Source: Eutreptiella sp. 'Long Island Sound 2002' (Eukaryota; Euglenozoa; Euglenophyceae; Eutreptiales; Eutreptiaceae). Taken from it: 64,000 bases of DNA. The notes below the pieces were generated by a model. It was not told the DNA's origin. It ran no database searches and saw only the letters and a program-made list of their open reading frames with translations. Below, in pieces: positions 6,301-62,426 of the stretch. The translations under genes were made by a program, and so were the position numbers. The stretch lies in assembly GCA_964036045.1 (NCBI GenBank), contig OZ038379.1, positions 20,670,476 through 20,734,475 on the forward strand. Reading direction: 5' to 3'. Numbering within the stretch: position 1 is the stretch's first letter; every line of letters begins with the position of its first letter.

Positions 6301-9300
6301 CATTTTCGACCCATTTTTGACCCATTTTTGGTCGCAAAACAGGCCATTTTCACGGCATTTTGGGATTTTAGGGGGGCCAAAACGGGCCACAACGAGCTCA
6401 AAAAATGTGCCAAAAATCTTTGTTTTGGCATTCCGTGTGGTCTAGGATCATTTTTGAAAGAAGACATTTTTTTGCACCTGGTGGACCTTGTTGACCCATT
6501 TTGGCACCCATCTCTTTGGGCTACCTCTTGCGGCTTACCGCGGTGCACTGGGCCTAGGTACGGCGGTCTAGGCGTCGGTTAGGGCAATTTTGAGGGGTGG
6601 AAACCACCAAAATTGGATGGTTGCGGGTGGATTAGGTGCGCTCGAAATCGCGGTTTGAGCCACGTAGCCCAAGATATGGTTTGTTCATGGTTTGGGGTTG
6701 CCGGCGGCCAATGTGCACAAATTCTAGGGCTTTTGGGGGCCTTTTGGGGGCAGTTTGCGGACATATTGTGGAGTTAGAGGGCCCTAGAGGGCCCTTCGGC
6801 ACAGGGAAGTCTAGCTGCATGTGTAGAGTAGCCACTATTTTCCTTCATTTAGCTGTTTTCAGCAGGTTCTAGGGCATTTTTGGGCAAAAAAAGGCCGCTT
6901 TTAGCCCTAAATTGCAGAGTTTGAAATGGAGGTCCGGCACTTGCAACGCCCGTTTCCGGCCACCACCGTTTACTTTTTGGCTCATACTTTGTGTGGTGGT
7001 CCCTCACACCCATAGGTAGCATCCACCAAAAAATGTTTTTGCCGAATCCGAAGCACCACCACGGAGATGTGATTTCCCCCCATTTTCGCGCGTGCTTGCT
7101 GCTTGCTGCTTGCTGCTTGCTGCTTGCTGCTTGCTTGCTGCTTGCTTGCTTGCCAAACCTGTTAGGTCCACCCTGGACACTAAAGAGGGTTATAAAACCA
7201 AGATTGGTTCCACCAGCACGGTGACCCCAGCCCTAGCCTTAACCAGGTCTGAATATTGGGACCGAGCGGGTGGAGGAAGGAACATCGTATAGGAGACTTC
7301 AATGACAAATGAGGTACGCACTGGACAGTGGATGGCGGCTCAAAAGGGGCTCAAAATGAGCCGTGTTCATCCGTTTGGACACCACAACTGGACTAGGATC
7401 AGTTGTGGAAAGCCATGGTTTTGACCCGTTTTGGAGCCATTTGGGGACCCAAAGTGGCCCATTTTCAAGGCCCTTTCGGCCTTGAGAGGGGCCAAAATTG
7501 CCCACATGGGCTCAAAATGGGCCCATTCCACTTGTGCGTGGACCCCAAATAGTCCAAAAGTATGTTTGAAAAAACACATATTTTTGATCCATGTTTGACT
7601 GATTTTTCGTCGCAAAACAACCTATTTTCAAGGCATTCTATTTGTGACTTTGGAGTGGCCAAAATGGCTTGCAATGGGCTCAAAAAGGGCTCATTTCTCA
7701 TGTTTAGGCAGCCCAAATGGTCTAAGATAATTTTTGGAATAACACATTTTTGACCCATTTTGAACCCATTTTTGGTCCCAAAACAACCCATTTTCGAAGC
7801 ATTTTGTGTATGGAGGGGCCAAAATGGCTTGCAATGTGCTCAAAAGGGGCCCATTTCACGTGTTTAGGCACCCCAAATGGTACAGGATCATTTTTGGGGA
7901 GAACACATTTTTAACCCAAAACAGCCCATTTTCAAGGCATTTTGTGATTTTAGGAGGGCCAAAATAGGCCACCACGGGCTCAAAACGCACCTAAACCACT
8001 TGTTTTGGCATTCCAAGTGGTCCACAATGATTTTTCAAAAACGTCACTTTTTGCGGCCGATGGACCTTATTGACCAGTTTTGGCACCCACCTCCTTGGGC
8101 TACCTCTTGCAGCTTGCCGCAGCCCACTGGGCCTAGGTATGGGGATCTAGGCGTCGGTTATGGCAATTTTGAGGGGTGGAAACCACCAAAAGTGGGTGGT
8201 TGCGGGTGGATTAGGTGCGCTCGAAACCGCTTTTCTTTTTTTGAGCCACGTAGCCCAAGGTATGGTCTGTTCTTGGTTTGGGGCTGTCGGCGGCCAATGT
8301 GCACAAATTCTAGGGCTTTTGGGGGCCTTTTGGGGGCAGTTCGTGGACATACTGTGGAGTTGGACTAGAGGGCCCTTTGGCACGGGGAAGTCTAGCTGCA
8401 TGTGTAGAGTAGCCACTATTTCCCTTCATTTTGCCGTTTTCAACAGGTTCGAGGGCGGTTTTGGGCAAAAAGAGGCTGATTTTGGCCCTAAATTGCAGAG
8501 TTTGAAAAGGAGGTCCGGCACTTGCGACGCCTGTTTCCGGCCGCCACTGTTGAGTTTATTGCTCACTTTGTGTGGTCGTCTCACACACCCATAGGTAGCA
8601 TCCACCAAAATTTTGGCCAAATCTGAAGCACCACAACGGAGATCTGATTTCCCCCATTTCGCACGTGCTTGCCGCTTGTTGCTTGCTTGCTGCTTGCTTG
8701 CTTGCTAAACCTGTTAGGTCCACCCTAGACACTAAAGAGAGTTATAAAACCAATACTGGTTCCACCAACTCGGTAACCCTAGCCCTAGCCCTAACCAAGA
8801 TTGAAAATTGGGACCGAGCGGGTGGGGGAAGGAACATCGTATAGGAGACTTCAAAGACAAATGAGTTACGCACTCGAAAGTGGACGAGACCGGCTCAAAA
8901 GAAATGAGATGTATTCATCCCTTTGGGCACCACAACTGGACTAGGATCATGTTTGGAAAACCATGGTTTTGGCCCGTTTTTGCGTCATTTGTGGTCCCGA
9001 ATTGGTCCATTTTCAAGGCCCTTTCGGCCTTGAGAGGGGCCAAAATTGCTCAACATGGGCTCAAAATGGGCTCAGTCCACTTGTGCGTGGACCCCAAATA
9101 GTCCAAAAATATCTTTGGAAAACCACATTTTTGATCCATTTTCTACTGATTTTTGGTCCCCCAACAGCCCATTTTCAAGGCATTTTGTGACTTTGGAGTG
9201 GCCAAAATGGGTTGCAATGGGCTCAAAAAGGGCTCATTTCACTTGTTTGTGCACCCCAAATGGTCTAGGATCATTTTGGAAAAACACATTTTTGACCCAT

Positions 9301-12300
9301 TTTTGACCCATTTTTGGGAGCAAAACAACCCGTTTTCAGGGCATTTTGGGATTTTAGGAGAGCCAAAACGGGCCACAACGGGCTCAAAATGCGCCAAAAA
9401 TACTTGTTTTGGCATTCCGTGTGGTCTATCTAGGATCATTTTTGAAAAAAGATTTTTTTTGCACATGGTGGACCTTGTTGACCCATTTTGGCACCCACCT
9501 CTTTGGGCTACCTCTTGCAGCTTGCCGCAGCCCACTGGGCCTAGGTACAGGAGTCTAGGCGTCGGTTGGGGCAATCTTGAGAGGTGGAAATCACCAAAAT
9601 TGGGTGGTTGCGGGTGAATTAGGTGCGCTTGAAATTGTGTTTTGAGCCATGTAGCTCAAGATATGGTCTGTTCACCAAGCTAGTAGAACCAGTCTTGCTT
9701 TTATAACCCTCTTTAGTGTCTAGGGTGGACCTATCAGGTTTAGCAAGCAAGCAGCAAGCAGCAAGCAAGCAGCAAGCAGCAAGCACGCGCGAAATGGGGG
9801 GAAATCACAGCTCCGTCGTGGTGCTCCAGATTCGGCCAAAATTTTGGTGGATGCTACCTATGGGTGTGAGGGACGACCACACAAAGTATGAGCCAAAAAG
9901 TAAGTAAACGGTGGCGGCCGGGAACGGGTGTCGCAAGTGCCGGACCTCCATTTCAAACTCCGCAATTTAGGGCCAAAATCAGCCTTTTTTTTGCCCAAAA
10001 CCGCCCTCGAACCTGTTGAAAACGGCAAAATGAAGGGAAATAGTGGCTACTCTACACATGCAGCTAGACTTCCCTGTGCCGAAGGGCTCTCTAGGGCCCT
10101 CTAACTCCACAATATGTCTGCGAACCGCCCCCAAAAGGCCCAGAATTTGTGCACCTTGGCCGCCGACAGCCCCAAACCAAGAACAGACCGTACCTTGGGC
10201 TACGTGGCTCAAGAAAAAACGCGGTTTCGAGCGCACCTAATCCACCTGCAACCACCCAATATTGGTGGTTTCCGCCCCTCAAAATTGCGCTAACCGACGC
10301 CTAGATCCCCGTACCTAAGCCCACTAAGCTGCGAGACGTAGCCCAAAGAGGTGGGTGCCAAAATGGGTCAATAAGGTCCATCGGCCGCAAAAAAAAATGA
10401 CGTTTTTCAAAAATGATCGTGGACCACATGGAATGCCAAAACAAGTGGTTTTGGCGCGTTTTGAGCTCGCGGTGGCCTGTTTTGGCCCGCCTAAAAGCCC
10501 AAAATGCCTTGAAAATGGGCTGTTTTGGGACAAAAAAATGCGTCAAAAATGGGTCAAAAATGTGTTTTTCCAAAAATGATCCTGGACCATTTGGGGTGCC
10601 TACACAAGTGAAATGAGCCCTTTTTGAGCCCATTGCAAGCCATTTTGGCCCCTCCAAAGTCACAAAATGCCTTGAAAATGAGCTGTTTCAGGACCAGAAA
10701 TGGGTCAAAAATCTGCTTTTCCAAAAATATTTTTGGACTATTTGGGGTGCACAAACAAGTCGAATGAGCCCAATTCGAGGACATTGCAAGCCATTTTGGC
10801 CCCTCTCAAGGGCGAAAGGGCCTTGAAAATGGGCCAATTCGGGACCACAAATGGCTCAAAAACGGGTCAAAACCATGGTTTTCCAAAAATGATCCTTGTC
10901 CAGTTGTGGTGCCCGAACAGATGAATACAGCTCAATTTGAGCCCCTTTTGAGCCGCTCTCATCCACTTTCGAGTGCGTACCTCATTTGTCGTTGAAGTCT
11001 CCTATACGATGTTCCTTCCCCCACCCGCTCGGTCATATATATATCCTCCTTCATTCAATCCTGGTTAGGGTGCTGGTGTGGTTAGAGGGTGGGCAAGGGG
11101 AAGTAAGGGGAGCCTGTTATTGACCAACGCTTGGCTTTGGGGGCACATACCCCCCAAATCGCCCCACCTGGAGCCCCCCCCCCCCCCCAACCATCCCTCC
11201 CTGACCCCCCAGCAACCGACCCTCCCGGGACCCCCCCCCCCTCCCCCAGGGGGCCTCCGGCCAATGGTTAGTGTGTGCACCCCCCATGCGTGGGGCTTGG
11301 CTGAGGGGGATGTTGACAGCCAATCTCCTTTATTTTCATTGCTTTGATGTTGGGAAACAGTGTGGTACTCTAGTGAAAAATAGAGAGGCCCGAATCATGT
11401 GGTGCGCCTGCAGCGCGCTTCGAAACGTTCTCCAAGTGTTCACTGGAGCGAACTCACAGGGTACCTGAATCCGTCCGTTCAAGCATGTCTAGGAGAAGCC
11501 CTGCGGCCCAGTCCAGTGCAAATACAAATTTATAAGGCCACTGAAAAGCAAGTGGGTAAGGGAGTTTACTGTGCACACACCAAGATCCGGACATTCTCTG
11601 CGCGCGCTCCATCAGTTGGGCCCGCCGTGCGCACACACCCGGTATTTGCAGGGAACGGCATCTGTGCCGATGGCGCGGGCAAGATTGGCCGGGCCCTTGA
11701 AGTGAATGGGGTGTTGAAAACGCTTGACCTTGCAGGTATGCAGTGTATCAGTATCAAAATCAGGTGTGCGTGTGTGCGCATATAAATTGCTAAACCCTAG
11801 TTGCAGCTGGCCCTGAGCACCAGTCACCTGCTGTCTGTGGCTTACCGCTGGCTGCTTCCCGCAGGTTAGACCTGCTGGCAGCTGGAATAACCCTTCGGGA
11901 CAGGGTTTACACTTGTTTCTTAACCACTTTTCTTGCTCCATTATTGTTTTGTGGTTCCCAAGTGTGTGTCTGCGCATGCGTGCGTGTGCGTGTGTTCGTA
12001 CCATGTGTGTTTGTGTGCGTGTGTGTGTTTGGGGAGGCGATTACTGGGCATTGGCAATGTTGGAGCACCAGGCGCTGCACGGGGGCAGGCTTTGTTCCCG
12101 TGCCTCCAGTTGGAGTGTGGGTACCCTACACAACACAGATAGAGGCATAGTCGCACTGGATCCTGCAACAAACACCAGCCCAGGTGCCCACACTGACAAA
12201 GGCGATGGACAGGGGATATAGCCCTGACAACACCTTCATCCACCATGGCAGTTTCATTTGATTGCGCTCTGATGAGGGATATGTGACACTGCAACATAAT

Positions 12301-28312: not shown

Positions 28313-28799
28313 CCAAACACACCTCAATTTAGGTCACTTGAACATGGTCATCCATCATGTACATGGTGATGATGATGCATAATGATGATGATGATCACGA
28401 TCGAAAAGTCTTATTTTGAGAGACTTTGGGCAATGTTGCATGATTTTTGACATGATTTGACCAATGAGGTCTTCCTTAAGAACGCTTATGTCAAAAGAAA
28501 GTAGCTTGCGACTATGCAAGGATCTTCCCGTATGTCTTTGGGACGAGGTCTGTAAGCTTCAACACTCCGTTTCGTCGTATTCCTTCTTTCGGTGCCCCTT
28601 TGTGTGTCCGTCACGTCAACTCAAGCGCTGAGGGTGCTGTTTTTGGTGCCTGTGGACAATGGGGAGCCCTCGGCACCCATCGCCTCCCTAGGCCGGTACC
28701 TTTTACAACTCATGATGCCCCAAGTATCCCAAAATATGACTCTCTAGCACAGCCGGATGCCCAACTAGTTGCACTGCACACGCACTGCGCTAAGTGCGC

Positions 28800-29237
28800 T
28801 GTAATAGAAACTACTTGGCTCAATAGAGTGACAGCCATTTGTAATTGGGGACTCATATGACGAGGGTTAGAGTGTCAGCTTTGTAATGTTGCGCCGAATT
28901 CGCGCATTTAAAATGCCACATCAGCAGCGCGTGCACTTCTGTGCTTTAAAAGTTTTGATTGAGAAACATAGGCCTTCTATGAATGAGTTCATTAGATTCA
29001 ATCATGAGAACTTTCATTGCACCTGTTTTGCAGGATGCAATGTTTTTAACATGATATGATCTGAGTTACGGAATCAAGGACACTGGAGACCTGAGTACTG
29101 ACAGAGATTTGGGCTGATCATTGAATTGTATTGGTGCTTGCGTGCTTACAGTGAACTTTGTTGACAGGGTACTGTGTCAGGGAAAGAAAATGGACATGAA
29201 ATAAACAGCCAACCAGAGAAAACTCAGAAAGGTTACA
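28800..29237 (+). repeat. Left LTR
   Basis: 438 bp, starts TGTAATAGAAAC and ends CAGAAAGGTTACA. Preceded by the target-site copy TGCGC. It differs from the right LTR at about 11 positions, among them GTTGCGCCG/GTCGCGGCG and GAAATAAACAG/GAAAAAAGCAG. Confidence 0.93.
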
Positions 29238-29381
29238 AAGCATTGCATCCGTGCCTGACGGATAGTATGCTGTTCGACGCGCCTGCCCAGTTCATTCGAG
29301 CCTGTGGACGCGCTAGGTCTTTGGACCAGTGCACATATTGCAGCGCACACCAAAGCACCCCACATCCGTTCCTCGTGACGA

Positions 29382-29855
29382 TTGTGCTGCTGCCCCCGTT
29401 CTCCAATTCCACGTGCAAGGGAGGTATTCTACGCCACCAAGATTGCACTGGGGCGCCTACACGCCAAATTACGATGCATTTGCTGCTATGGCATGCACGT
29501 CGCGACGTTCTCCAACGCTCGTGCCACCATCGCCGATAACTTCGGAAACAACGTGGGAGATGTTGCTTGCAGGAGCTCCGACCTTGTCGGTTTTTTCGTA
29601 GAAGCCTCTTGTGCTGCGCTGGTTATCTCCTCTCAGAGCGAAGGACAGGTGACGGCTGCGTGGACAACCGTTATGTTCCTCTTGTGCATCAGTGGTTGCG
29701 GCATTTTGGTGTGCACGGTATGCAGCTTCATTGCCGCGGACTTGAAGTCTGTCTCTGATGTTGAGAAGATGTTGAACGTTCAGCTCTTCACGACTCCGCT
29801 GGAGATAAGTATCGCACGCTGGTGCATCCCACTGGTACGTTGCGCCCTTGCTTGA
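29382..29855 (+). pseudogene. Captured fragment of membrane H+-translocating pyrophosphatase (V-PPase type)
   Basis: The frame from about 29523 reads ATIADNFGNNVGDVA, SSDLVGFFVEASCAALVIS, then a hydrophobic part with ISGCGILVCTVCSFIAAD and a VQLF segment. Membrane pyrophosphatases have the block ATIADNVGDNVGDVAGMGSD followed by LFGSxAEAxCAALV and a membrane helix with GIxVC. The order, spacing and helix match over about 95 codons of a protein that is normally about 650-800 residues. V-PPases use pyrophosphate to pump protons into vacuoles or other acidic compartments. Here the conserved Asp-rich site is changed (DNVGDNVGD to DNFGNNVGD; AGMGSD to ACRSSD), so a working pump site is not expected even though the frame has no stop. 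Upstream codons in this frame do not match the family. The fragment lies just inside the left LTR. Confidence 0.75.
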
Positions 29856-30884
29856 CTTCGTGCCACTTCACTGGCGCACTGCCTCTTTGCTTGACTTGGT
29901 GGTCAGCGTGAGCAGCACAGAGTAAGAAGGCGAGCGTGACCATCAGCCGCAGCGCTTTCGACCTGCGGCCGGGCAAGTAAGCAGCGCTTCCGCGCTTTCA
30001 TTCTTTTGTAGCGCTCGCTTATGTTGAGCGCTGTCGTGCTGGAGTCTTTGTACACGTTGTGCACCTGCAGATTTACTGCTAGTGGCGTGTCTTCCTGGCC
30101 CTTTGGGCTATGCATCTACAAATTTACTTGCATGTATAATTGAGTCTGTCTTCTGGGCCACTCTCAGTGGTCTGGAAGGTCTTTCTGTGTGAAGATAGAT
30201 CCGAAGTATGCAGTTGTTTGTTTGCCTGTTGCATCTCAGTGATTTGATTTGAATCTAAAATTTGGGTTTTACACAGAGGCTTCAAGTGACGCCAGGATCC
30301 TGTTATGTGTGCTGCCCCAACTGTATGGATACATGCCTTTGCTTTCTTTTTCGCTGGTTGTTCACTTTTTGCTTACAAATTACAGTGGCCATGTGCTGGT
30401 CAGACCGGGGACCAGTGCCCTTGTGTGACTGGATTTTCTGGGGCCTTGAGTTTCTCGACGCCCCTTGGTTGGACACAACTGCTTTAGCGAAAACAGTGCT
30501 TTCACACTGCTTTTTTTTTGTGCAACATACTTTGAGTTTTGAGGTTGCACACACCATTTGGCACCTCACTCACTCACTTTTTTTTTGTCTGCACCTCAAC
30601 ACCACCACACACATGCACTGTGTCCACTACATGTGTGCACCACACTGCAGGTTTTGAAAAACCACTGCAGGATTCCCCCCTAAATTGGGATACCTTTTGC
30701 AGGTTTTTCAAACTTGTCGCAGGGGATTTCTAAAATTGCTTTGCAGTTTTGGGAACACCAGCCTGAGACATGTTTATGATGTATTATAGAGGAATGGGGT
30801 TTTTCTAGCAAGGACAAGTCATGCTTTTCCCCAACCCTTGTTGAAATTTTTTGACTGTCTTGAAAAGGATACTCAGTACGTAGT

Positions 30885-31115
30885 GTGTGACTAGGCCGTC
30901 AAGAAGGGCTTTGCCATGCACGCGGCCACATTTGTTTCCATTTGCTATGGCTAGGCCCACAAGTAGGGCTTTGCCGCTTGCGATTAATTTTGTACACAGA
31001 ACGGTTTGTGTTCACTCACTATGGCTAGGCCCACAAGTAGGGCTCTGCCATGTGTGGTTTGCAGCGTGTGTAGGTGTTGCCTCCGTGTGACTAGGCCCAC
31101 AATGAGGGCCTCCGC
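30885..31115 (+). repeat. Four-copy degenerate repeat inside the LTR element
   Basis: GGCTAGGCCCACAAGTAGGG followed by CTTTGCC recurs in variant form near 30888, 30948, 31021 and 31088, at steps of about 60-73 bases. Confidence 0.75.
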
Positions 31116-31988
31116 ACATTGAGGGTGAATCATGGCCTGGGCCATTATGGGGCCTTGACCAATGAGTTAGAGGTGGTAACCATTACTCATTTAGTTTCCA
31201 AAGATTGCTTTAACACAACCCCCCACCCTTCTCCTCCTCCCAATTTTATTGTTTATCATTTTCAACAAAAACCGAGACTAGATATGTTTATTCCCATACA
31301 CATAACAGAACTAGAATAGGTGGACATAGAGGCCCCCGGTTGCACGGCCTCAGCGCATGATTTCCATTTTTGAACGGCAAAAACTCATCCCCAAATTAGT
31401 AATCCGAAGCGCCGACATATTCCAATTTTTTACGTATACCCACGTACATAAAAACTTCGCCTCTGGCTCAGAAATACCCCCGGAGGAGTGTAAGCCAGCT
31501 TCGGGCCGCTGATCTACCAACCCCTAGGAACGTTTCTATTAACACATGCAATAGGCTGGGATCCGCCCCAGGGAACAGAAGCGCCATTTTATTCCGACAT
31601 GTAGCAGGATAATGAGGGGACCCGCCCCCTGGTGAACATTTGGAGGGTTGCCTTCGCCCAAGTGTGCCAAAGGAACTCTGTTTCTTCTTTTCCTGAAGGC
31701 AATGACATGGCTAAATTGTTTTCGGGATGGAGTGAATGCAGCATTGAGGGCCGGAAGATTGTTGAGATGTGGTGAGGGAGTGTAGGCCCCAAAATAATTG
31801 GGTAGATGCCCAGTTGTTGAGTTGTGTGGTCAGGTGACCAAATGGTCTGCTCTTTGTTTATACCCATGCCTATGATTTCCAGCATGTCATTTGTGACTAG
31901 CCCCTGTACCCCAAGCATTTGTGTTAACATTCAGGCACAAATGATGGAACACCCACCCGTCAAGTTTTGGTTGAATTTGATGTACGGA

Positions 31989-32142
31989 GTCAGATCGAAA
32001 TAAGGGGAAACCCGGAGGGATGTCATGCCACGAGGGTAGGCCCCCGTACCCGATGCAAATAGCTGTCGGATCAAGATAAGGGGACACCCGGAGGAATGGC
32101 CATTGCCCATGAGGGTAGGCCCCCGTGCCTGACATAAAGACA
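31989..32142 (+). repeat. Two tandem ~76-bp repeats inside the LTR element
   Basis: GATCGAAATAAGGGGAAACC, then ACGAGGGTAGGCCCCCGT (31989-32061), is repeated as GATCAAGATAAGGGGACACC, then ATGAGGGTAGGCCCCCGT (32066-32140). Confidence 0.75.
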
Positions 32143-32942
32143 CCATCCTAGCATGTGAATGGATATCAAAGTTTGGCCCCCACCCCCACAACCATGTATT
32201 GGTTTTGGCAGGGGAGTAGTCCAACCTGGACTACTCTCCGATTTTGTGTTACTATGCAATCTGTGGAGCATATGCCCAAGTACACTTCTACATTTTCACT
32301 CCTATTGCTTTTCGTAACATTTGTATTGAATCTTGTAACCTTGGGAAATGATTTTACAGACTTCTTGTGGTCACGTGAAAACACAGCGAAGACACACGCT
32401 ACTATAATTCAACCGGAGATCATGGACAGCATTTATGTTTGCATAAACCCCCCCCCCGACGACTAGTGTCCAGACAGCATAGCATTTAGCATTTCCTGGG
32501 GATTTGTGATGTGTGTTTTTGAAATGGCCCACACCGTGACGGCATAGCTACACACTGCTGCTGTAAAGGCGTATTGGACAACTTGGCCTGGCTGGCCCCC
32601 ATGCTTTCCTCTCTACGGTTGACATTTATTAAGACCCCCATGATGGGCACATTTTTCTCAGCCTGAGACCCCCCACCTAAACTAATCTGGCTATGTGTCC
32701 TAACTTGGTTTCACATTGGAATGAGCAAGTTTGTGATTCTTCGCTTAAGAGTGGCATTGTTCAATAGAATCTTCGCTTACCTTTTGCGCCACTTAACAAC
32801 ATAACTTTGAGCTCAAGACTAGTACCAGGGATGGCTCCACACTTTCTGAGTGTCTATTTGTGTTGGAGTGGCCAAGCAGTTCTATCTATTTCCTAATCAG
32901 CATGTGCTAAGGGTCCATGTGGTTAGCCCTAGCACATAGCTT

Positions 32943-32952
32943 GGCAGGGGAG
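32943..32952 (+). promoter_or_regulatory. Polypurine tract of the LTR element
   Basis: GGCAGGGGAG directly abuts the TG of the right LTR, the normal place of the plus-strand primer in LTR retroelements. It is short and has one pyrimidine. Confidence 0.7.
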
Positions 32953-33390
32953 TGTAATAGAAACTACTTGGCTCAATAGAGTGACAGCCATTTGTAATTG
33001 GGGACTCATATGACGAGGGTTAGAGTGTCAGCTTTGTAATGTCGCGGCGAATTCGCGCATTTAAAGTGCCACATCAGCAGCGCGTGCACTTTTGAGCTTT
33101 AAAAGTTTTGATTGAGAAACATAGGCCTTCTATGAATGAGTTCATTAGATTCAATCATGAGAACTTTCATTGCACCTGTTTTGCAGGATGCAATGTTTTT
33201 AACATGATATGATCTGAGTTACGGAATCAAGGACACTGGAGACCTGAGTACTGACGGAGATTTGGGCTGATCATTGAATTGTATTGCTGCTTGCATGCTT
33301 ACAGTGAACTTTGTTGACAGGGTACTGTGTCAGGGAAAGAAAATGGACATGAAAAAAGCAGCCAACGAGAGAAAACTCAGAAAGGTTACA
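32953..33390 (+). repeat. Right LTR
   Basis: 438 bp with the same ends as the left LTR. Preceded by GGCAGGGGAG (polypurine tract, 32943-32952) and followed by the target-site copy TGCGC. Confidence 0.93.
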
Positions 33391-34150
33391 TGCGCCCCCA
33401 CATTTCGATGTGTATGGCTTCTTCGTATCCCACATGGTGCCCCACACCTCTGTTCATCCCCAGACATCTGCATTTGAACCCTTGCTTTGGACACTATCTC
33501 CCAATAAACACCATCTGCAGGCCAAAAAGTGCAAAAGTCAATTATGGTTCCCAAAACATCACAAATCGCCTTGAAATGCCCTTCTCTTCTTGGTGGTCAC
33601 CAATGATCCAAGTGGAGCAGCAGAAGGCAATACATTCCCGGGGGGGGCGGGGGACTACAGCGGGTTCTGATGTGACACCCCCCCAAATATCACCCAAAAC
33701 TTGCGGGGGGGGGGGGGTCGGCGGGAGGGGGGGTATTGGCAGGTCGGCCGGGGAGGGGGGGGCTGCACGCGACCCACTACTACCACATGCGTACCGCAAT
33801 GGGGTGAGTGTGTCTGGGGGGCATGGGGGTATAGAGGTATGTATGCGATAATAGCAATTTCTCATCTTTGCCGGGAGGAAACTCTTAAAGATCTTCAGGA
33901 CCAAAGGCATATTACCCCCTTCAACTAAGCATGGCTTGAAAAATTTTGCGCCGTTGGCGCCACGTCCCCTGCACCACTATCTTTCAAAACTCAGGGGAGG
34001 GTGTCGCATACAAGGACCGGGGCTTCCCCCCCCCCCCGGGACTACATTGTAGAGAACAGCCCCGTAAATTGTTGACGATGAAGCATTTCCATGGGCACTG
34101 AGAGCATTCTGGGGCTGAAGGGCTTTTGTTGCCTCAGAACACCCCAGATC
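33391..34150. other. No gene recognised
   Basis: Contains G tracts (33642, 33706) and a C tract (34029), plus C/G-driven open frames on both strands without domain signals. Confidence 0.4.
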
Positions 34151-39086: not shown

Positions 39087-42000
39087 TCATTCCGCATGCA
39101 CCGTCAGAGTGGCAGACCTCCCGAACACCTCTGGGCTGAGCACCTCCTCAGCAGTCGCAGGGGGTGCTATGAATTCTCCAAGGCCTGTGACCTGCGCCAC
39201 ATACGAATATGTGTGTGCGCCCTCCCAGACTCGCCCTGCAAACGCCTCAACCCGCTCGTCTCGGAGGTTGTCATGATCGTACCACCGCCAATAACAGCAG
39301 CGGCCGGCAGCAGGCGGCGTGCCCCCCAACTCCGGAGTTCCAGCCAAGGCCGGATTCAGAGGCTCCAGACAGGCCGGCAGCTTGTCCACAAGAGCCACCC
39401 TGTGCCGCACCATGCGGGTCTCAAGGGTCAGCGTGACCTCTATCAGGCGCCCAGACTTCAGCTTGTAGCCCTGGGCCGTGGTCTGCACGTCCTCGGGGTC
39501 CTGAAGGGCTTTGTACGTGCGCTGCACGATGAAGCCTGCATCATGGGCGGGCAGAATGTTGCTCTTGGGCGCGTACTTCAACCCCAAGCGGTAGTACAGC
39601 CGCCCCGGCCCCACTTTGTGGATGTGCAGCGGTTGCGGCGCAGCGCCTGCAGTGTCCACAAGGTATTTCATGGGCACATCCGTGACCTTTGTGACGGTGC
39701 TGCGGCCCTTGTGCTCGTGGTCCGCGACGAGGGACGTGCTCAGCCAACTGTGGGCCGTGAACGCGGGGGTGGCGGCCTCATACGTGTTGAAGTAGCGGTC
39801 CACCGCCAGCAACGCAAAGACGTTCTCCTGCGTGTTGCCCCAGCGGCCCCTTTGGCGCACCCCCAACAGCCCCTTCATCAGCTTTGGGATGATGGCATTG
39901 GACGGGTCCATCACCTGCAGCGCCTCCAGCACAATCGCATCGGTACGCGGGCTTGAACGCAGGAGCACCAGGGTGTCCGCCCCCGCATCCTCGTACCCGG
40001 TGCAGCAATGCGCAGCCCCTGCGGTCTCCACCGTCTGATTGGCAAAATACTTCAGCACGCTCTGCACGATGGAGTGGGTTGCCTTGAGGGGACTGGTGCC
40101 GTGCACCGCCAGCGCCAGCCAGGCTGCAGCGTCGAGCCCCAACTTGTGCACGCCACCTGCCGCATTGTACAGCTCCGCCGCCTCCGACGCCATCTCCGCC
40201 TTCTCGAACAAAGACAACACGTAACATCGGAGGCACTGCAGCGTGCGGCGCGTAGACTCCGAGTACTTGTCCCAATGCGGAAAAGCACTGAGGTCCCGCA
40301 GCGCCTCAATCAGCCTCCCGACCGCATGCGCGCTCACCTTGTGGCCCTTGCGCTGCACCTGGGCGAAGCAGTGGGCCACATGCAGAGTGACAAAGACGTC
40401 AGCTTCGGTGTCCTGGGCCCAGAAGCCGAAACCTCCGCACGGCAACTGTGCCTTCAACAACTTCTGTACCAGGATACTGCCCAGCGTCGTCAGCTCCGGA
40501 TCTTTGGGGATGGTCGGCGATGCGAACGCGGTCTGGATGTCCTTCAGTAACGCAAAAGCCAAGACCCTGGACGCCATGCTCTCGACGTACTCGAACGGGT
40601 ACTCCACAAGATACTCAAAGGCGTCGGTGACGGTCTGCAAAATGGTGGAGGAGGACCCGATCTGCAGCCCCCCGTACGCGGGGTACACGTCTGCGGGCGG
40701 CTGCAGAGCATGCGTGGCCACAGCGCCGTCGGGGTCCAGTTCACCGTAGGCGGCAAAGGCCTCCGCTGTGGCCGGCGTCCAAACGGGGACCTCTGCATCG
40801 GCCGCGTCCGCCACGCCTCCGGCGGCGGCACCCACCATCTCCGCGCCGACCTGGACCTTGGCCTTGCCGGGCAGCACGGTCTTTGCCTCGAAACGCACTT
40901 CCAGGCGCTGCTGAGGCTCCAAATGGATCCGGAAGCCACCGACGCCGGGCCCCACCAGCTCCAAATTGGAGGTCCGGGCGACCACCGCCACATCGGCGGC
41001 ACGGGACGTCTGGTTCTGGACCACGACCGTCAACTTGGCGTGGTCCCCGACGTTCAGGAACCGCGGCAGCGATGGCCGGACCATGAGCGGCAGCGCGACC
41101 TCGACCGCGCTCTCCCCCATTCCGAACGCAGACTGCGCAGTGCACGCGACGGCGATCACGCGGTACTTCGTGAGGCTGTCCGGCAGCGGGACCGGGACGG
41201 TACACGCGCCGGCGGCGTCGGTGCGGACGTTCCCGTGGAAGCACGCGAGGGCGTCGAAGTTGGTGCGCACGGCGATGGGCATGTCTGCGCCGCCGGGGCC
41301 ACCCATTCCGTTCGCGGCCATGCCCATGCAGCGGGCCATACCCATACCATACGCACGATAGCCACACTCGTCATAGATCTCATCTCCGATGGCCTCGAAC
41401 AAGAGCTCGCGCCAATTCCGCGAAAGCAGACTCACCCTCGTGTCACAGCGGAATGAATGCCGCGCGTAGCCCTCTATGCGCGTTCCATCGCCGTAGAAGT
41501 AGCCTTGAGGGGTCGGCGAAATGAAGTACTCCGCGGCCTCAGGCTCGTCTTCGGGCATCGGATTCCGGGGGCACATGCCGCGGGCGAGCGCGAGCACAGC
41601 CTCGTCCACGACCCAAATCGCGACGTCGGCTGCAGCAGCCGGCGCCTTCGTGGCGGCGTTGTGCACCGAGACGGACACGTCGGTCTTCGACCCCGGCGTC
41701 AGATGTGTGGCCCCTGGTCGCACATCCACCGTCAAACACTTGATCTTGTAGCTGATCTCCAAATCCATTCCCGCCTGGGCCCCCACGAGGCCTTCGCCCG
41801 TGCCTGAAGCGCTTCGATCCACCACGACGTCCACATTCAATCTCTTTTTGGCACCCGGAATCCACTCCTCTTTGACGTCGAAGCGCAGGTCATGACTCCC
41901 GCCCGGCGGGATAGCAAAGCACTCGGTGTACAGCAGCCCGCGGCCCTGCAGCTGCGCCACGGCCTGGCACGGGTCACTCAGCAGCGACTGCACCGTCACC

Positions 42001-45000
42001 ACTGCGCAGTCCCCGGCCTCGTAGCGCTCTTTGTTTGGGATCAGCTTCAGAGGCTCTGCGTTCTGGTCCTTCGCAGACGCACGCGGCAGCCGTCCCACGA
42101 CCAAAAGGGACGCACTGCAGGTGTTGACGAGCCCTGTGGGGTCCGCCACTCGGGCCTCCAGCGTGTACTCGCCGCCCTCGTCGAACAGCAAATCGAGGCA
42201 CATTGTACCCGGGGCAGAGGTGTACTCCTTGACCCACCGCTCGATCACCTCCACATCGTTTCCAAATCGCTTCCTTTGAGTCGACGTGCACCGCACAGTG
42301 AGCGGGACGTCCGCGATGGCCTTGCCTGCGACGTCGCACACCACGAGCTCCACCTCCACTGACGTATTCGCCCGGGCCCACGGAAGGGTCTTTATCCCCA
42401 CGTAGTACTTCGAGGGATGCACCGTGAAACTGGCGCTGGAGGACATGGTCTGGCGGTTGATGTCGGTGACGGTGCCGTTGGCCTTGACTTGAACGGGGTA
42501 TTTGCGCTTTTGCGACGCGTTTGCCTTGAAGTCAATGCACAGGCGGTGCTGCCCTTTGGAGTTCGTGTTGCTCTTGTGCCGCAGCACTGGGCCCGAGTCA
42601 TCGTCTTGAAAGCCCCGGAACCCGAAACAGCCCCAGACCGGGGCGTCCTGGAAGTGGAAGGCCGGCCAGCCCGCAGGGCTGAAGGTGGTTTTCTGGGAGT
42701 CCACGGTCCACTCGACGTTGGCCTGCGTCAGAGGGCCCCCGGCGAAGTAGCTGGCGTGCACGGCCACGATGGCACTGCCCCCCGTCACCAGCGGCGGGCC
42801 TGAGGGCGCTGTACAGGACACGTTGAACTCAGGGCGCCGGAATTCTTGCACCTGAAATTCATGGTAGTGATGGCCGCCCTCCCCCATTTCGCAGGACACG
42901 CCGTACCACCCCAAACCGCACTCCGTGGGCAACGGAATCTCTGCGTAGAACGTGCCGTACTCGCTCGTGGTGACCACCTGCTTCCAAATCGGCTGACCAC
43001 TGCCGGGGTCGAAGCACTGAAGCGTTACCGGTACGCCGCCGGGGCTCCACAGTTCCACCAGCTTGTTGTCAGTGGTGGGGCGGCAGCCGCGGGCGATGCC
43101 TTTCAAATGCACGGTCTCGCCCGGGCGGTACAATTTGCGGTCGTCGAAGGTGTACAATGACATACCCTTGGCATACTTTTTTTCTCGCATTTCGCTGATG
43201 AGTGCAAAGCAGCAGTCATCCCCCACCTTCACTACAATCAGGCAGTCACGTTGCGAAAGGCCATCGGCGCCGCGAGTGATCATGCCGTTGGCGCCGGTGG
43301 TGCCACTCCAGTTCGCGGACCATTGTTCCCCGTCACCATCACAATCGTACGGGGAGCCCACGACACCGTACGCCACTTCAGCACCGGGGATGGGCTTCCC
43401 AGTCTCCAGGGACGTCACCCAGACCATATCCTCAGTCCTCGTCCGCAATGCATTTGCCGCCAGAGCCGTGGCCTGGACCCATACGGTGCTTGCCCTCAGG
43501 TCAGGCACGTAGCGGCTGGGGTAGTGCTCTGTGGCCTCTATGACGGGCGGCAAACTCTGTGGGGCAGGCGCGGGCTCCGTCACGTTCGGGTCGACAAACA
43601 CGATGATGTTCCCCGCCGGGGCACCATCCGGGCCGTGGTTCCGGAACGCACTCTTCAGGTCCACATGGACGATGGTGGGCACATCCGGCTCGCAATTCGT
43701 CGGAATGGTCCCACTGGCAACGGCCTGCCCCAAGCGCTTCAGTTCGTCGACGTAACTCTGGAGCGCCTCGTCCATGCCATGCAGGCCCTTCATGTACAAG
43801 TTCAGGTACACAGGCCACATCGACGGCTCAATGGACACAATGCACACGTCCACCCGTGGAACGTTGACGACCACCACCGAGTGGTCGTAGGGTGCGGGGG
43901 GGCCCCCTGTGGCATGGCTGATGCCATTCGTGTTGGACTTGGGCACAACATCGGGAGGGGTCTTGCTCATGGGGTCCAGAACCCACATGCTCTGCAGGGG
44001 GCTGCACTCAGAACCGTTCACGGCCTTCTGTCCAGCGGCGTTCCCCAGCACACTGAACATCTTCGCAGCAGCCCCAATTTCACACTCCACCGTGTGGGAC
44101 TGGCCCAGCCTCTGGCCGTAGACGTCCTTCACTGCGGCATCCACAGTCACCGTGTACTTGGTGCGGGCACGGGTGCGACCGCTGATGTTGACCTCGCACT
44201 CGGAAACGCTCAGTTCCATGTCTTCAATGGGGGGCTGCACGCTGATGAACGACTCCAGGAACTCGTCGACATCCAAAGAATTGTTGAAGGTCAGGCGCAA
44301 CGGCGTCTGAGGGGGGGACCGCGATGCCGCCTGCGGCCCGTGGGCACTAAGCGCCAGCCGATTGTACGTGCAGAACTCGCGGACGCTCGGCTCTGCACTG
44401 CACAACGGCCCCTCGGCGGAGGGCACGTTTGGGCCGACCGTCAGAGTCCAGTTGGTCCCCTTGGCAAGGGCCTCGCACGGCTTCAGCAGCACGACACGCT
44501 CTGGGGGGGTCCGGGAGGTGCAGGCGCGAATACTCCGGGCCTCAGACACGCCGGCCTTGAGGTAGTAGGGGTCTGAGTCCAGGTGCTGGTGCACTTCCGC
44601 GGCGCTCTGGCACTTGAGGGGCACGGAGCGGTCTGGGCCAGACAACCGCAGCGCGGGGAACACTTTGGCGCCATCCATCGCTTGATCAAACACGAGGGCC
44701 ATGATGGGCTGCGTGCCAGTGATACCGCAGGGCAGAGACCGAATCAGCCTTGGCGTGGCCGTGGACCACTTGTTCTCAAACGTGGCCGCGAGCGGAGTCA
44801 CCGCAGCGCCCAGCGCTTTTGTGCCTTGCTTCACGACCGCCGCATATTCCGTCGCTTGTGCGAAGCGGTACTTGGGCTCGAACATCAGCGTGCGGTCCCC
44901 GATCCATCGCCAGCGTCCGTCGGTTTTGGGGCTGAGCTCCACCGGCACCAGGAGCTCATCCACAGCAGCGACACTGGAAATTGGCACCATCGGGTGCGAA

Positions 45001-45386
45001 AACGTGATGGAGAAATGCGGCGCCAAGGAGACCTCCCCTTCCGGTGAGCATCGCACAACTGTCAACTGTCCACCCTCCGCTGTGGGGGCTACAGCAGCAG
45101 GTGCTTCATCAGTGGTCTCTGGAGGGAAAGGCATCTGCTCTTGTGCTGACGGCGGGGGCGCCGTCGTCGTTGGCCGGGGGGCAAAGTCTACTCCCAGGTC
45201 ATGCGGCTCCCAAGTTGGAAGCCGCTGCTCCAAGTGCGCCTTTTCATCAGAGGTCAGGGTTGCAAAGCTCTGCACAGAGGTGGCTGTGACATCCACGTAT
45301 TGGCCCACCATATCGTCGGAGGCAGGCTCTCGCACCGAAAGGAAGATGGCCGGGTTGGCCTCCTCAGTGGGATCACCATCATACAT
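39087..45386 (-). CDS. Bacterial-type alpha-2-macroglobulin family protein without thioester, about 2100 aa, intronless
   Basis: One uninterrupted frame of about 2100 codons; the first ATG in frame is at 45384-45386, 12 codons inside the open frame, whose upstream edge is a TGA. Numbering from the frame edge: Ig-like/N-terminal domains (about 115-450), macroglobulin domains with DDRKLYRPGETVHLKG (about 760) and FQVQEFRRPEFNV (about 856), the WVVDEAVLAL segment (about 1270), the conserved A2M block RTNFDALACFHGNVRTDAAG, LPDSLTKYRV (about 1385-1420), then the helical thioester-domain region (YGGLQIGSS...) and a C-terminal domain ending ATAEEVLSPEVFGRSATL. This order is that of the bacterial A2M family (COG2373 type), which traps proteases. 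At the thioester site, bacterial proteins have YPYGCVEQ; here it is YPFEYVES (near 40579-40606), so Cys and Gln are both missing and covalent trapping is not possible. No clear signal peptide; the pyrimidine-rich CTGTTTTCCTCTGCAAG just upstream could be an acceptor for an upstream exon. The G+C-rich, intron-free form suggests transfer from bacteria or retroposition. Confidence 0.93.
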   Translation of the reverse strand: MYDGDPTEEANPAIFLSVREPASDDMVGQYVDVTATSVQSFATLTSDEKAHLEQRLPTWEPHDLGVDFAPRPTTTAPPPSAQEQMPFPPETTDEAPAAVAPTAEGGQLTVVRCSPEGEVSLAPHFSITFSHPMVPISSVAAVDELLVPVELSPKTDGRWRWIGDRTLMFEPKYRFAQATEYAAVVKQGTKALGAAVTPLAATFENKWSTATPRLIRSLPCGITGTQPIMALVFDQAMDGAKVFPALRLSGPDRSVPLKCQSAAEVHQHLDSDPYYLKAGVSEARSIRACTSRTPPERVVLLKPCEALAKGTNWTLTVGPNVPSAEGPLCSAEPSVREFCTYNRLALSAHGPQAASRSPPQTPLRLTFNNSLDVDEFLESFISVQPPIEDMELSVSECEVNISGRTRARTKYTVTVDAAVKDVYGQRLGQSHTVECEIGAAAKMFSVLGNAAGQKAVNGSECSPLQSMWVLDPMSKTPPDVVPKSNTNGISHATGGPPAPYDHSVVVVNVPRVDVCIVSIEPSMWPVYLNLYMKGLHGMDEALQSYVDELKRLGQAVASGTIPTNCEPDVPTIVHVDLKSAFRNHGPDGAPAGNIIVFVDPNVTEPAPAPQSLPPVIEATEHYPSRYVPDLRASTVWVQATALAANALRTRTEDMVWVTSLETGKPIPGAEVAYGVVGSPYDCDGDGEQWSANWSGTTGANGMITRGADGLSQRDCLIVVKVGDDCCFALISEMREKKYAKGMSLYTFDDRKLYRPGETVHLKGIARGCRPTTDNKLVELWSPGGVPVTLQCFDPGSGQPIWKQVVTTSEYGTFYAEIPLPTECGLGWYGVSCEMGEGGHHYHEFQVQEFRRPEFNVSCTAPSGPPLVTGGSAIVAVHASYFAGGPLTQANVEWTVDSQKTTFSPAGWPAFHFQDAPVWGCFGFRGFQDDDSGPVLRHKSNTNSKGQHRLCIDFKANASQKRKYPVQVKANGTVTDINRQTMSSSASFTVHPSKYYVGIKTLPWARANTSVEVELVVCDVAGKAIADVPLTVRCTSTQRKRFGNDVEVIERWVKEYTSAPGTMCLDLLFDEGGEYTLEARVADPTGLVNTCSASLLVVGRLPRASAKDQNAEPLKLIPNKERYEAGDCAVVTVQSLLSDPCQAVAQLQGRGLLYTECFAIPPGGSHDLRFDVKEEWIPGAKKRLNVDVVVDRSASGTGEGLVGAQAGMDLEISYKIKCLTVDVRPGATHLTPGSKTDVSVSVHNAATKAPAAAADVAIWVVDEAVLALARGMCPRNPMPEDEPEAAEYFISPTPQGYFYGDGTRIEGYARHSFRCDTRVSLLSRNWRELLFEAIGDEIYDECGYRAYGMGMARCMGMAANGMGGPGGADMPIAVRTNFDALACFHGNVRTDAAGACTVPVPLPDSLTKYRVIAVACTAQSAFGMGESAVEVALPLMVRPSLPRFLNVGDHAKLTVVVQNQTSRAADVAVVARTSNLELVGPGVGGFRIHLEPQQRLEVRFEAKTVLPGKAKVQVGAEMVGAAAGGVADAADAEVPVWTPATAEAFAAYGELDPDGAVATHALQPPADVYPAYGGLQIGSSSTILQTVTDAFEYLVEYPFEYVESMASRVLAFALLKDIQTAFASPTIPKDPELTTLGSILVQKLLKAQLPCGGFGFWAQDTEADVFVTLHVAHCFAQVQRKGHKVSAHAVGRLIEALRDLSAFPHWDKYSESTRRTLQCLRCYVLSLFEKAEMASEAAELYNAAGGVHKLGLDAAAWLALAVHGTSPLKATHSIVQSVLKYFANQTVETAGAAHCCTGYEDAGADTLVLLRSSPRTDAIVLEALQVMDPSNAIIPKLMKGLLGVRQRGRWGNTQENVFALLAVDRYFNTYEAATPAFTAHSWLSTSLVADHEHKGRSTVTKVTDVPMKYLVDTAGAAPQPLHIHKVGPGRLYYRLGLKYAPKSNILPAHDAGFIVQRTYKALQDPEDVQTTAQGYKLKSGRLIEVTLTLETRMVRHRVALVDKLPACLEPLNPALAGTPELGGTPPAAGRCCYWRWYDHDNLRDERVEAFAGRVWEGAHTYSYVAQVTGLGEFIAPPATAEEVLSPEVFGRSATLTVHAE

Positions 45387-45445
45387 TATGGACAAGAGGT
45401 ACTTGCAGAGGAAAACAGACACTCAGAAAGTGAATGCAAGGTGTT

Positions 45446-46186: not shown

Positions 46187-47950
46187 TTATTTTCCACTAT
46201 TCCTCCGGTGTCGGCTAGCCACCACACTGACCTCTCCCACATCGTCTTGCACAAACCCACACTCACTCAAACCTTTGGATGCTAGTGTCACATCCACTTC
46301 ATCCTCGCATTCTTCATCCGAGTAATACGAGTCACCCTCCCCATCCACCCACTTACTGTCCGCGACATCTGCCAAACTTTGCAAGACACTCGACACCTAG
46401 GCCTCCGCACCGCTCCGTGCCAGATTCGCAACTGCCAACAATAGCACCCACGCTACAGCCTGCAATCTCTATGTATCCTCTCCCGTCTGCTGAATGAACT
46501 TACGCACCACCGCATCCACATCCACATCATAAATTGCCTTCATCTTGCGCAACCTCTCCTTCATTTGGTGAATCACCTGCTTCTTCCGGATTCCAAACCC
46601 TCTCCACATCTCCTACTCCGTGTCGCCTTCTCCTCTTCTTCCTCTCATTAGGGGGCCGAAGTACTTTACTATCCTCGGCTTCTCCGATCTTGAGCTCCCT
46701 GATGTTGCATCGGATCCAGAGTGTCCACCACTGCGTCGCTCCCCACATCCTATACGCGACCGAGAATATGCCGTCCTTTCTCTTGGGAATCGGCGCCTCC
46801 TTCTGGCCTAGAATATCAATGAATGTGTTGGGTGTGCATACGCCAGTGCTACGCTGGGCATCTGCCATCCTCCCATGAGCTATAGCGGCGGCCCTCTTGC
46901 GCCTGCCGCCCACGCTTGTGCAGCCCCACACCCGCAGTGTCCTAGAATATCAATGAATGTGTTGGGTGTGCATACGCCAGTGCTACGCTGGGCATCTGCC
47001 ATCCTCCCATGAGCTATAGCGGCGGCCCTCTTGCGCCTGCCGCCCACGCTTGTGCAGCCCCACACCTGCAGTGTGCGCATGCCATCGGAGGGCATGCTTC
47101 TTTTCTCGTGCCACCAACTCAACCAACTAGGCCTCAAACTCGCTAGGGGACTAGAAATTATGTGGGACATTCGGGTTTCCCGCCTTGCTCCTCCACTCTA
47201 CGCCCACGGGTATGAGCCACCTTTGGGCCATGCACCGACATTTTGCACTTGCACAGCTAGGCTATTGTTTTCGCTCATGAAGATCAACTTCCCCAGACCA
47301 TTTCTGTATGCACTCCAAGCTTCACCGATGGCGCAACAGGTCGGACCCGGATAACACTGCTAACAGTAAGTATTCCATTTCTAGCCACGTGAAGTGCCGT
47401 TTTTGCACCGTGATGTCATAGATGACGTCAGATGGCGCATATTGTATCCATCGGCCACCTCTCCTCTTTTTCAGCTTCTCCAAACTTCTCGCGAATACCC
47501 AATCTCACTCCTGGACCACCAGTTCGATGACCTTCGATTTCTCTGCCAATCGAAGTGCCAACAACAACTTCTTGACTAGCCCTTCATAAGAACTTTCTCT
47601 TGTGATTTGCAGCAGCCTGCTCTCAACTGCTTCTCTCAGCGCAAGCCATCCCTCGATCTTCGTGTAGCCCACGAAAGTGTGCATTGCTCCCACATATCCA
47701 TCCCTCTTCTCCTTTTCCAATCACGCCCACATCACTGACGCGTAACTGCGTCGAAACCCCGCATTGTCTTCGGCTGTACAATCCTCCAATCTTTTCTGCA
47801 TCCTCCTCGCTTCCTCAATACCCCACCCACGTAGTCACCTGCTTCCAAACTCCTTGGCCTGAAAAGCCCAGTGCTTTCGGTTGTAGTACCTACATGGTTC
47901 ATTCACGGGCACTTAGGAGTCTTGCCACGTTTGTGCTCTTGTTTTAAAAT
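46187..47950 (-). pseudogene. Decayed coding segment with several premature stops
   Basis: Protein-like sequence runs along the minus strand in linked frames. Examples are FQAKEFG, RRMQKRLEDCTAEDNAGF, EKEKRDGYVGAMHTFVGYTK, WLALREAVESRLLQITRESS, AWSAYRNGLGKLIFMSENN, IFSVAYRMWGATQWWTLW and the acidic SKWVDGEGDSYYSDEECEDE near the end. The frame is cut by TGA at three sites within 47460-47860 (before LRGWG, LEKEKR and DWVF), later by TAG codons, and by at least two shifts. Each of the three TGA could derive from CGA by one C-to-T change. Most open frames here are therefore fragments of one dead gene. I do not recognise the family. A 134-bp tandem duplication lies inside it. Confidence 0.55.
46807..47074 (+). 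repeat. Perfect-looking tandem duplication of 134 bp
   Basis: CCTAGAATATCAATGAATGT begins at 46807 and again at 46941. The two 134-bp copies differ by a single base that I can see (CACACCCGCAG versus CACACCTGCAG). It is a recent duplication inside the decayed coding segment. Confidence 0.95.
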
Positions 47951-48879: not shown

Positions 48880-49250
48880 ATGCTAAATTGTCCCTCGGCC
48901 TAGATTATGATCCTGGAGTCCAACATCAGCCATGCCTGCTCGGGGTCCCCATGATGGGGAGAAAACAACATGGATACACCACCTCTGCCTTCTCGAGGTC
49001 CCATGGTGGGGAGAAATCAACTTAGAAAAGAGCGGATGTGGTAGAAATGAGCAAAAAACAAAGTGTGGAAACGGGTGGAAATGAGTGAAACTAGGTGAAA
49101 ATCCTAAAATGCCATATCCCCAATGTGTAAGAAGCATAAAAACCTACTCTCAAACAACAATGATGCCCCTAGTATCGCAAAGTACGGGTCTCTAGGACGG
49201 CCACAGGACCAAATAGTGCTGCGCTTGCACTGCGCTAAGTGTGCCCCCTA
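48880..49250 (+). repeat. Dispersed repeat related to 18880-19110 and to the inverted repeat at 13.7-14.5 kb
   Basis: Contains TGCCTTCTCGAGGTCCCATG, GGTGGGGAGAAATCAAC, CCTAAAATGCCATATCCCC, GATGCCCCTAGTATCGCAAA and TGCACTGCGCTAAGTG. The last phrase also stands directly before the LTR element (28780-28798). Confidence 0.6.
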
Positions 49251-61462: not shown

Positions 61463-61482
61463 ACCCTAACCCTAACCCTAAC
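61463..61482 (+). repeat. Interstitial telomere-like repeat (CCCTAA)3
   Basis: ACCCTAACCCTAACCCTAAC stands directly before a satellite copy. This is the purest telomere-like string in the window and points to a TTAGGG-type telomere. Confidence 0.85.
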
Positions 61483-62426
61483 AAGGATTGAATATTGGGA
61501 CCGAGCTGGTGGAGGAAGGAACATCGTCTAGGAGACTTCAACGCCAAATGAGGTACGCGCTGGAAAGTGCATGAGAGTGTCCAAAAAGGGGGTCAAAATG
61601 AGCTGTATTCATCCGTTTGGGCACCACAACTGGACTAGGATCATGTTTGGAAAACCATGATTTTGACCCGTTTTTGAGCCATTTGTGGTCCCAAATTGGC
61701 CCGATTTCAAGGCCCTTTCGGCTTTGAGAGGGGCCAAAATTGCTCAAATTGGGCTCAAAAATAGGCTCATTCCACTTGTCTGTGCACCCCAAATAGTCCA
61801 AAAGTATCTTTGCAAAAACACATTTTTGATCCATTTTTACAGATTTTTGGTCCCAAAACAGCCCACTTTCAATACATTTCGTGACTTTGGAGTGCAAACT
61901 GGCTTGCTATGGGCTCCAAAAGGGCTCATTGCACTTTTTTAGGCACCCCAAATGGTCTAGGATCATTTTGGAAAAACACTTTTTTGACCCATTTTTGACC
62001 CATTTTTGGTTGCAAAACAACCCATTTTCAAGGCATTTTGGGATTTTAGGAGGGCCAAAACGGGCCACAACAAGCTCAAAACGCGCCAAAAAAACTTGTA
62101 TTGGCATTCCATGTGGTGCATGATCATTTTTGGAAAAAAGGTTTTTGCTCCCGGTGGACCTTGTTGACCCATTTTGGCACCCACCTCTTTGGGCAACCTC
62201 TTGCAGCTTGCTACTGCCCACTGGGCCTAGGTACAGGGGTCTAGGCGTCGGTAAGGGCAATTTTGAGGGGTGGAAATCACCAAAAGTGGGTGGTTGCGGG
62301 TGGATTAGGTGCGCTCGAAATCGCGTTTTGAGCCACGTAGCCCAAGATATGGTCTGTTTTTGGTTTGGGGCTGTCGGCGCCAAATGTGCACAAATTCTGG
62401 GGCTTTTGGGGGCCTTTTGGTAGACG
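61483..62426 (+). repeat. Further copy of the 1.2-1.5-kb satellite unit, 3' truncated
   Basis: Starts AAGGATTGAATATTGGGACC right after (CCCTAA)3, contains the same ordered landmarks and ~162-bp sub-repeats as the block at 5.96-11.06 kb, and stops at GGGGGCCTTTTGG, well before the usual end. Confidence 0.9.

Follow-up and report, generated by a model that had tools for sequence, protein, structure and literature searches.

Within a 64,000-nucleotide stretch of the euglenophyte Eutreptiella sp. 'Long Island Sound 2002' (contig OZ038379.1, positions 20,670,476 to 20,734,475; hereafter, the window) lies a 4.6-kb element that is very probably a decayed copy of a self-primed, non-autonomous long terminal repeat (LTR) retroelement family, with a body like those of large retrotransposon derivatives (LARDs) and with transduced exons of a host proton-pyrophosphatase (V-PPase) gene. 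An earlier note on this stretch had described an LTR element that is non-autonomous and has transduced part of a host V-PPase gene, a description now supported by LTRs repeated across the genome, by target-site duplications, and by an intron-free match to a host gene. The self-priming signal and the existence of three LTR subfamilies are findings beyond that account.

The two LTRs of the window element, each 438 bp long and bounded by TGTAA...TTACA, align with 11 mismatches and 0 gaps (97.49% identity in pairwise alignment), as the note had it; the TGCGC duplication on both flanks and the polypurine tract GGCAGGGGAG before the right LTR are likewise as it described them. A six-frame Pfam search of the interior lists H_PPase (PF03030) as the sole family up to E = 5, with an E value of 3.5e-11, and the 158-aa frame alone gives PF03030 at 5.8e-12 and a best E of 2.9e-18 against the solved plant V-PPase. 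The proposed pyrophosphatase similarity has thus survived the profile search that was named as its possible refutation. Its extent had been drawn slightly short, at 29523-29810: V-PPase similarity is present there, and the V-PPase DNA spans 29490-29814, including 41-42 nt from an earlier exon (GMHVATFSNAR). The motif given as ATIADNVGDNVGD was misread, the window letters giving ATIADNFGNNVGD. A loss of 16 bp at about 29485 breaks the captured frame in this copy.

The source of the segment can be traced within the same genome (2.28 Gb in 2205 contigs), of which the loci read, designated by L numbers, comprised sets of 20 stretches, 7, 11 short ones, 7 host V-PPase loci, 4, and 7. With all 43 candidates scored, the V-PPase relative P0010 has 33 matches: 21 fall within the LTR family, where they occupy 20 loci, and the other 12 within host V-PPase loci on C26, C3, C12, C8, C9, C4, and C18. 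Seven host loci were read, and by far the best source among them is the C26 gene (L047), which encodes protein P0008 at 100%. The exon A part runs from L047 position 1043, the first base after the acceptor, to 1083; the exon B part, from 1868 to 2121, is joined to exon A at the common 8-mer CCACCATC, with 345 nt (115 codons) of message dropped in frame; and the exon C part, from 3191 to 3236 (46 nt), ends where homology ends. Between exons B and C a host intron of 1069 bp (GTGCGT...TTGCAG) is gone from the captured segment, the intron loss that the note had proposed to look for. In L012, identity to the host gene is 95% over exon A, 83% over exon B, and 90% over exon C. The intron-free B/C join recurs in 17 of the 20 V-PPase copies, that is, in all 17 that span it; it was not found in the stretches read for L013, L018, and L039. 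Since the segment starts at an exon edge and is joined exactly over the intron, the donor was RNA, and by the evidence of these junctions the capture passed through spliced RNA. A second V-PPase gene is represented at two other host loci, L048 (C8) and L051 (C18), whose stretches closely resemble each other; the C18 piece looks partial.

Upstream of exon A, the 5' segment of the element (29268-29489) has 25 matches in the genome, with all 25 candidates scored: 23 are family loci and the other two are short pieces of 51 and 65 bases, and no source was found among them. The last base of this segment adjoins exon A exactly at the splice position, a boundary that suggests read-through and splicing from a donor borne by the element.

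A genome search with the LTR gives at least 40 matches at 92-100% identity (the best 40 of 115 candidates scored). Three subfamilies can be told apart, with LTRs of 377-554 bp over the family: A, at 438 bp (window, L009, L013, L019, L020, L021, and others); B, at 549-554 bp, with ~115 extra bases at the left end (L010-L012, L014-L018, L022, L024/L025, L026/L027); and C, at 377 bp, which resembles A in its first 167 bp only (L054, L055, L058-L062). The target-site flanks of the 20 elements with both ends match at 5/5 positions in 14, at 4/5 in four (L012, L019, L021, L057), and at 1/5 in two (L013, L017), the right ends of L012 and L057 having been placed by hand. A polypurine tract at the right LTR is present in other copies as well as in the window. 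Paired LTRs are 94.9-100% identical across 16 A and B elements, that of L012 differing by one gap only and that of L010 by one base; outside this set, L057 has 415/437 (95.0%), L054 362/385 (94.0%), and L059 98.9%. Given such near-identical pairs, some copies must have inserted recently.

The interior of the family is modular. A leader pattern composed of TTACA and the first 30 interior bases, with up to 3 mismatches allowed, has 32 matches in the genome, and its reversed control has 0. The V-PPase segment, whole or partial, is found in 20 of these (window, L011-L014, L016-L020, L022-L024, L027, L032, L034, L036, L039, L043, L046), a different 5' module in eight (L009, L021, L028, L038, L040-L042, L044; L040, L041, and L044 are of type C), and neither in four (L010, L015, L037, L045). 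Modules are mixed between copies: the A-type 3' body is found with and without V-PPase, and in C at 85-91%. This non-coding body occurs either way; the V-PPase fragment is a 5' module adjoining the LTR rather than a replacement of the whole interior. In copies without large insertions the interior measures 1.2-3.7 kb and the element 2.2-4.6 kb. In two copies of subfamily C, L054 (=L041) and L055 (=L044), the 30-base A/B leader, primer site included, begins at interior base 163, a position suggestive of 5'-end exchange between subfamilies. Subfamily B interiors contain an array of ~41-bp repeats whose length varies by copy and which follows the V-PPase module where that is present (L010-L012, L014, L016-L018, L024, L025, L027).

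From the shared breakpoints and losses, the capture looks single. The same 9 bases of exon B are missing in 16 of 17 copies, and a tree separates 19 element rows from the host gene with support of 99/98, on a stem of 0.083 and with end branches mostly of 0.004-0.06 (0.13-0.14 for L018 and L046), 15 of its 18 inner branches being weak and the bootstrap not settled. The exception to the 9-base loss, L046 (C3:117349536-117350596), retains these bases together with the host motif NVGDN and has no exon A piece; a 52-bp tandem repeat, found also in L037, stands where exon A would be. Its exon B start and exon C exit are nonetheless the common ones, and the B/C join is present; we take L046 to have branched off early after a single capture. 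Identity to host exon B is 81-90% across the 20 family copies (lowest in L018, which runs into an insertion) while LTR pairs reach 94-100%, so the capture is not recent. Judged by these identities, it predates the dated insertions; the recent activity asserted in the note belongs to the family and not to the capture.

No gag-pol of the family's own was found in the window and L012 by six-frame Pfam search or in the scanned parts of L009, L010, and L021. The whole interior of L012 gives H_PPase only, and the scanned parts of L009, L021, and L010 (the latter two on the plus strand only) give Pfam matches solely below curated cut-offs; absence in the remaining copies is judged by shared DNA modules only. 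Interior copies with full gag-pol and no V-PPase match, which the note had regarded as fatal to its account, were not seen among the loci read, part of them Pfam-scanned. Copies of 14-17 kb contain nested insertions. That in L024/L025 has gag-pol-like frames (by eye) and its own 2.4-kb repeat pair at 99.6%, with related sequence in L023 and L028; further insertions occur in L010, L018, L021, L022, and L026-L028. The window LTR has no match in phage records, nor do its first 20 bases match viral contigs.

How might reverse transcription be primed? The first 13 interior bases pair with LTR bases 234-246 (window 29033-29045) through 12 Watson-Crick pairs and 1 G-U pair. Only 5 of 18,547 random window 30-mers reach this score when anchored at base 1 against the window LTR, and 0 of 18,365 random 438-bp stretches reach 9 against the window interior start. 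Watson-Crick pairing is complete (13/13) in 11 of 18 other copies, the remainder having one or more changes. In minimum-energy RNA folds of 19 copies, all 13 pairs are present in 13, 12 pairs in four (L015, L018, L021, L028), and 9 in L020. The strongest evidence comes from subfamily C, where GTACGGACAGTTT stands at the same place in the LTR and the interior begins with AAACTGTCCGTAC directly behind its own LTR end, as the counterparts of GGATGCAATGTTT and AAACATTGCATCC. Between C and A/B, 5 of 13 positions differ on both primer and site, and every change is matched. Such covariation is predicted by self-priming, because the site of each new copy gets rewritten from the primer. Among nine C copies, pairing is 13/13 in L058 and L060 and 12/13 in L055, L059, L061, and L062, and L054 has 11 pairs and 2 G-U, so that with G-U included seven of the nine reach 12 or more paired positions; 17 of 20,000 random 30-mers reach 11, the score of L054. 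From complementarity and covariation together, the element appears to prime itself.

These findings bear on several other explanations. That the LTR pair arose by chance or through misassembly is practically out of the question, contradicted as it is by the alignment of the window pair, by 40 scored genome matches at 92-100%, and by the target-site duplications borne by many paired copies. An ordinary processed pseudogene that landed in or beside an LTR element and was carried along would account for the missing B/C intron; we nonetheless find this quite unlikely, for the segment is flanked by neither a poly(A) tract nor a target-site duplication (alignment, by eye), it starts at an exon edge and ends inside exon C, and its start lies 267-268 bp behind the LTR in whole copies (252 in the window, after its 16-bp loss). 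A free copy with these breakpoints is absent from the 33 genome matches, and a free processed pseudogene is rejected on that count. Retention of the segment for a useful protein is very unlikely. Among 13 further V-PPase copies inspected, nine do keep the captured frame open as far as its customary end (184-242 aa in open copies). Its dN/dS, however, is 0.75, compared with 0.86 and 0.87 for the two shifted frames, and private changes are spread over the codon positions as 35:41:38, figures that do not support selection at the protein level. Moreover, all 14 aligned rows depart from the host motif ADNVGDNVGD at V and at the first D that follows (L046, outside these rows, keeps both), and the first ATG common to the copies, found no earlier than the exon A piece, has been lost from L022. 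By these measures the frame shows no clear selection and no clear function. As for priming, a full-length tRNA 3' end calls for a site starting with TGG, and the interior start is not TGG; the joint change of site and LTR segment between A/B and C, at the same place, likewise speaks against a tRNA. We therefore consider it unlikely that the same element is primed by a tRNA or tRNA fragment, with the LTR/interior complementarity owed to coincidence, packaging, or dimerisation, even though LTR elements are commonly primed by tRNAs, half-tRNAs among them, according to the excerpted account in PMC6317226.

Other observations weigh against our own reading of a self-primed family with transduced exons. 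Pairing is poor in L063 and L064, the C copies least similar to the rest (9 pairs and 1-2 G-U), and is mostly lost in L019 (6/13 in the minimum-energy fold); in L055 it is uninterrupted over only 8 positions, which 403 of 20,000 random 30-mers reach. The helix also forms in 98 of 100 folds with a shuffled middle, so that the RNA fold adds little and is no independent proof. The order of events is made less simple by L046, which has neither exon A nor the 9-base loss. The 3.5-kb read of L047 has no match (E <= 0.01) to the LTRs, bodies, or 5' segment of the family, and no evidence points to a splice donor borne by the element. Finally, the check for an autonomous partner that the note had recommended turned up no gag-pol element with these LTRs among the loci read.

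With these points in mind, the life of a self-primed family with transduced V-PPase exons may be pictured as follows. The element would be mobilised by enzymes from another element. The first 13 nt of its RNA would fold back onto the site directly behind the left LTR, as in Tf1, and would then be cut off and serve as primer for reverse transcription. Once, in an ancestor, element RNA would have become joined to spliced V-PPase message and been copied into a new element. Most likely, transcription of the element ran on into the host gene, and splicing attached exon A to the transcript; in the ensuing reverse transcription, recombination would have deleted 345 nt at the 8-nt repeat and, 46 nt into exon C, switched back to element sequence, and the chimera would have multiplied as a passenger.

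More tentatively, as a serious possibility rather than our expectation, we envisage a network of enzyme-less, self-primed LTR elements that swap their 5' ends (LTR, primer, and site) as modules, in which one ancestor trapped V-PPase exons by LTR-driven spliced transcription in the manner of a retrovirus, and exon carriers became the majority of the family. The system makes a gene capture traceable within one genome, from donor gene, exon junctions, and breakpoints to subsequent spread. It also extends the range of self-primed LTR elements to a non-autonomous family, on the evidence of natural primer/site covariation, and it allows two questions to be put directly: how an enzyme-less element comes by its enzymes, and whether the exons it captured are of use or just passengers.

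The features of the window element are collected in Table 1. Several other features share the window. A host repeat (28712-28799 and 49160-49244, 76% identical) has a first copy that stops exactly at the insertion point of the element. The stretch 49154-49248 was considered as an empty-site paralogue of the left flank and set aside as weak: it matches up to the junction and for only 4 bases past the duplication. On the minus strand, 39087-45422 is an intronless frame of 2111 aa with bacterial-type alpha-2-macroglobulin domains (bMG10, A2M, MG2, A2M_BRD) in a eukaryote, possibly of bacterial origin. A U3 small nucleolar RNA at 58939-59128, also on the minus strand (Rfam RF00012, 43.9 bits), points to eukaryotic nuclear DNA. 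A repeat family of ~160-bp units around TTTTTGACCCATTTTT occupies 5959-11034 and 61463-62420 in both orientations, and two tandem 134-bp units at 46807-47074, 98.5-99% identical, are apparently a recent duplication.

Table 1. Anatomy of the LTR element in window coordinates
Feature	Position	Strand	Basis
Left target-site duplication, TGCGC	28795-28799	.	Window letters, flank comparison
Left LTR, subfamily A, 438 bp	28800-29237	+	LTR-LTR alignment, genome copies
Predicted self-primer GGATGCAATGTTT inside left LTR, the predicted 5' end of the element RNA	29033-29045	+	Complementarity and covariation, inferred
Predicted primer-binding site AAGCATTGCATCC, interior bases 1-13, pairing with the self-primer	29238-29250	+	
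30-bp leader, common to family members regardless of downstream 5' module	29238-29267	+	
5' segment, with matches in family loci and in two short pieces outside them	29268-29489	+	
V-PPase exon A piece, starting at the first base of the exon (1-nt chance overlap)	29490-29531	+	
V-PPase exon B piece, sharing 29523-29531 with exon A by way of the 8-nt repeat CCACCATC	29523-29768	+	
V-PPase exon C piece, fused to exon B without the 1069-bp host intron	29769-29814	+	
Subfamily A non-coding body; 30328-32952 also in copies without V-PPase (L009, L021, L028/L029)	29835-32952	+	
Polypurine tract GGCAGGGGAG, adjoining the right LTR	32943-32952	+	
Right LTR; second self-primer copy at 33186-33198	32953-33390	+	
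Right target-site duplication, TGCGC	33391-33395	.	

Among known systems, LARDs are elements longer than about 4 kb, and terminal-repeat retrotransposons in miniature (TRIMs) measure under about 1 kb with LTRs under about 250 bp. By these limits the present family exceeds TRIMs (its shortest element is about 2.2 kb, and its LTRs are longer as well) and is mostly shorter than typical LARDs. It shares with both the LTRs, polypurine tract, target-site duplications, lack of gag-pol, and non-coding body, and departs from them in that a predicted self-primer replaces the tRNA site and host exons occupy the 5' module. Non-autonomous TRIM elements are known, as the excerpt of PMC6934838 indicates. In Tf1, the first 11 bases of the RNA pair with the site and are then cleaved off (PMC7175516, in excerpt), and Tcn1 and TAR are presented as self-primed LTR lineages of plants (PMC6317226, in excerpt). 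Insofar as these excerpts describe them, the likeness to Tf1/sushi elements lies in a short LTR segment complementary to the site behind the left LTR, 13 nt here and 11 nt in Tf1, whereas those lineages are classified by their own polyproteins. In the interiors scanned here (window, L012) no chromovirus-type pol was found, and membership of the Tf1/sushi clade is therefore not claimed.

The nearest parallel for the captured cargo is Bs1 of maize, an LTR element carrying pieces of a plasma-membrane H+-ATPase and of two other host genes (PMC13317346, in excerpt). As far as that excerpt goes, the two systems are alike as LTR elements with a fragment of a host proton-pump gene, and here too an intron-free host gene fragment lies inside LTRs in several copies. 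They differ in that the fragment here belongs to the V-PPase family, recurs in 20 of 32 matches, and is accompanied by a self-priming signal and by no Pfam-detectable retroviral gene in scanned interiors. In retroviral oncogene transduction, read-through or splicing joins host exons to element RNA, and recombination during reverse transcription follows; that the same route was taken here is something we only infer. Among the open-licence papers listed as matches for pyrophosphatase together with LTR-element capture, none concerns this case. What is new is the combination, in which gene capture, non-autonomous LTR elements, and self-priming, each of a known kind, come together with transduced V-PPase exons.

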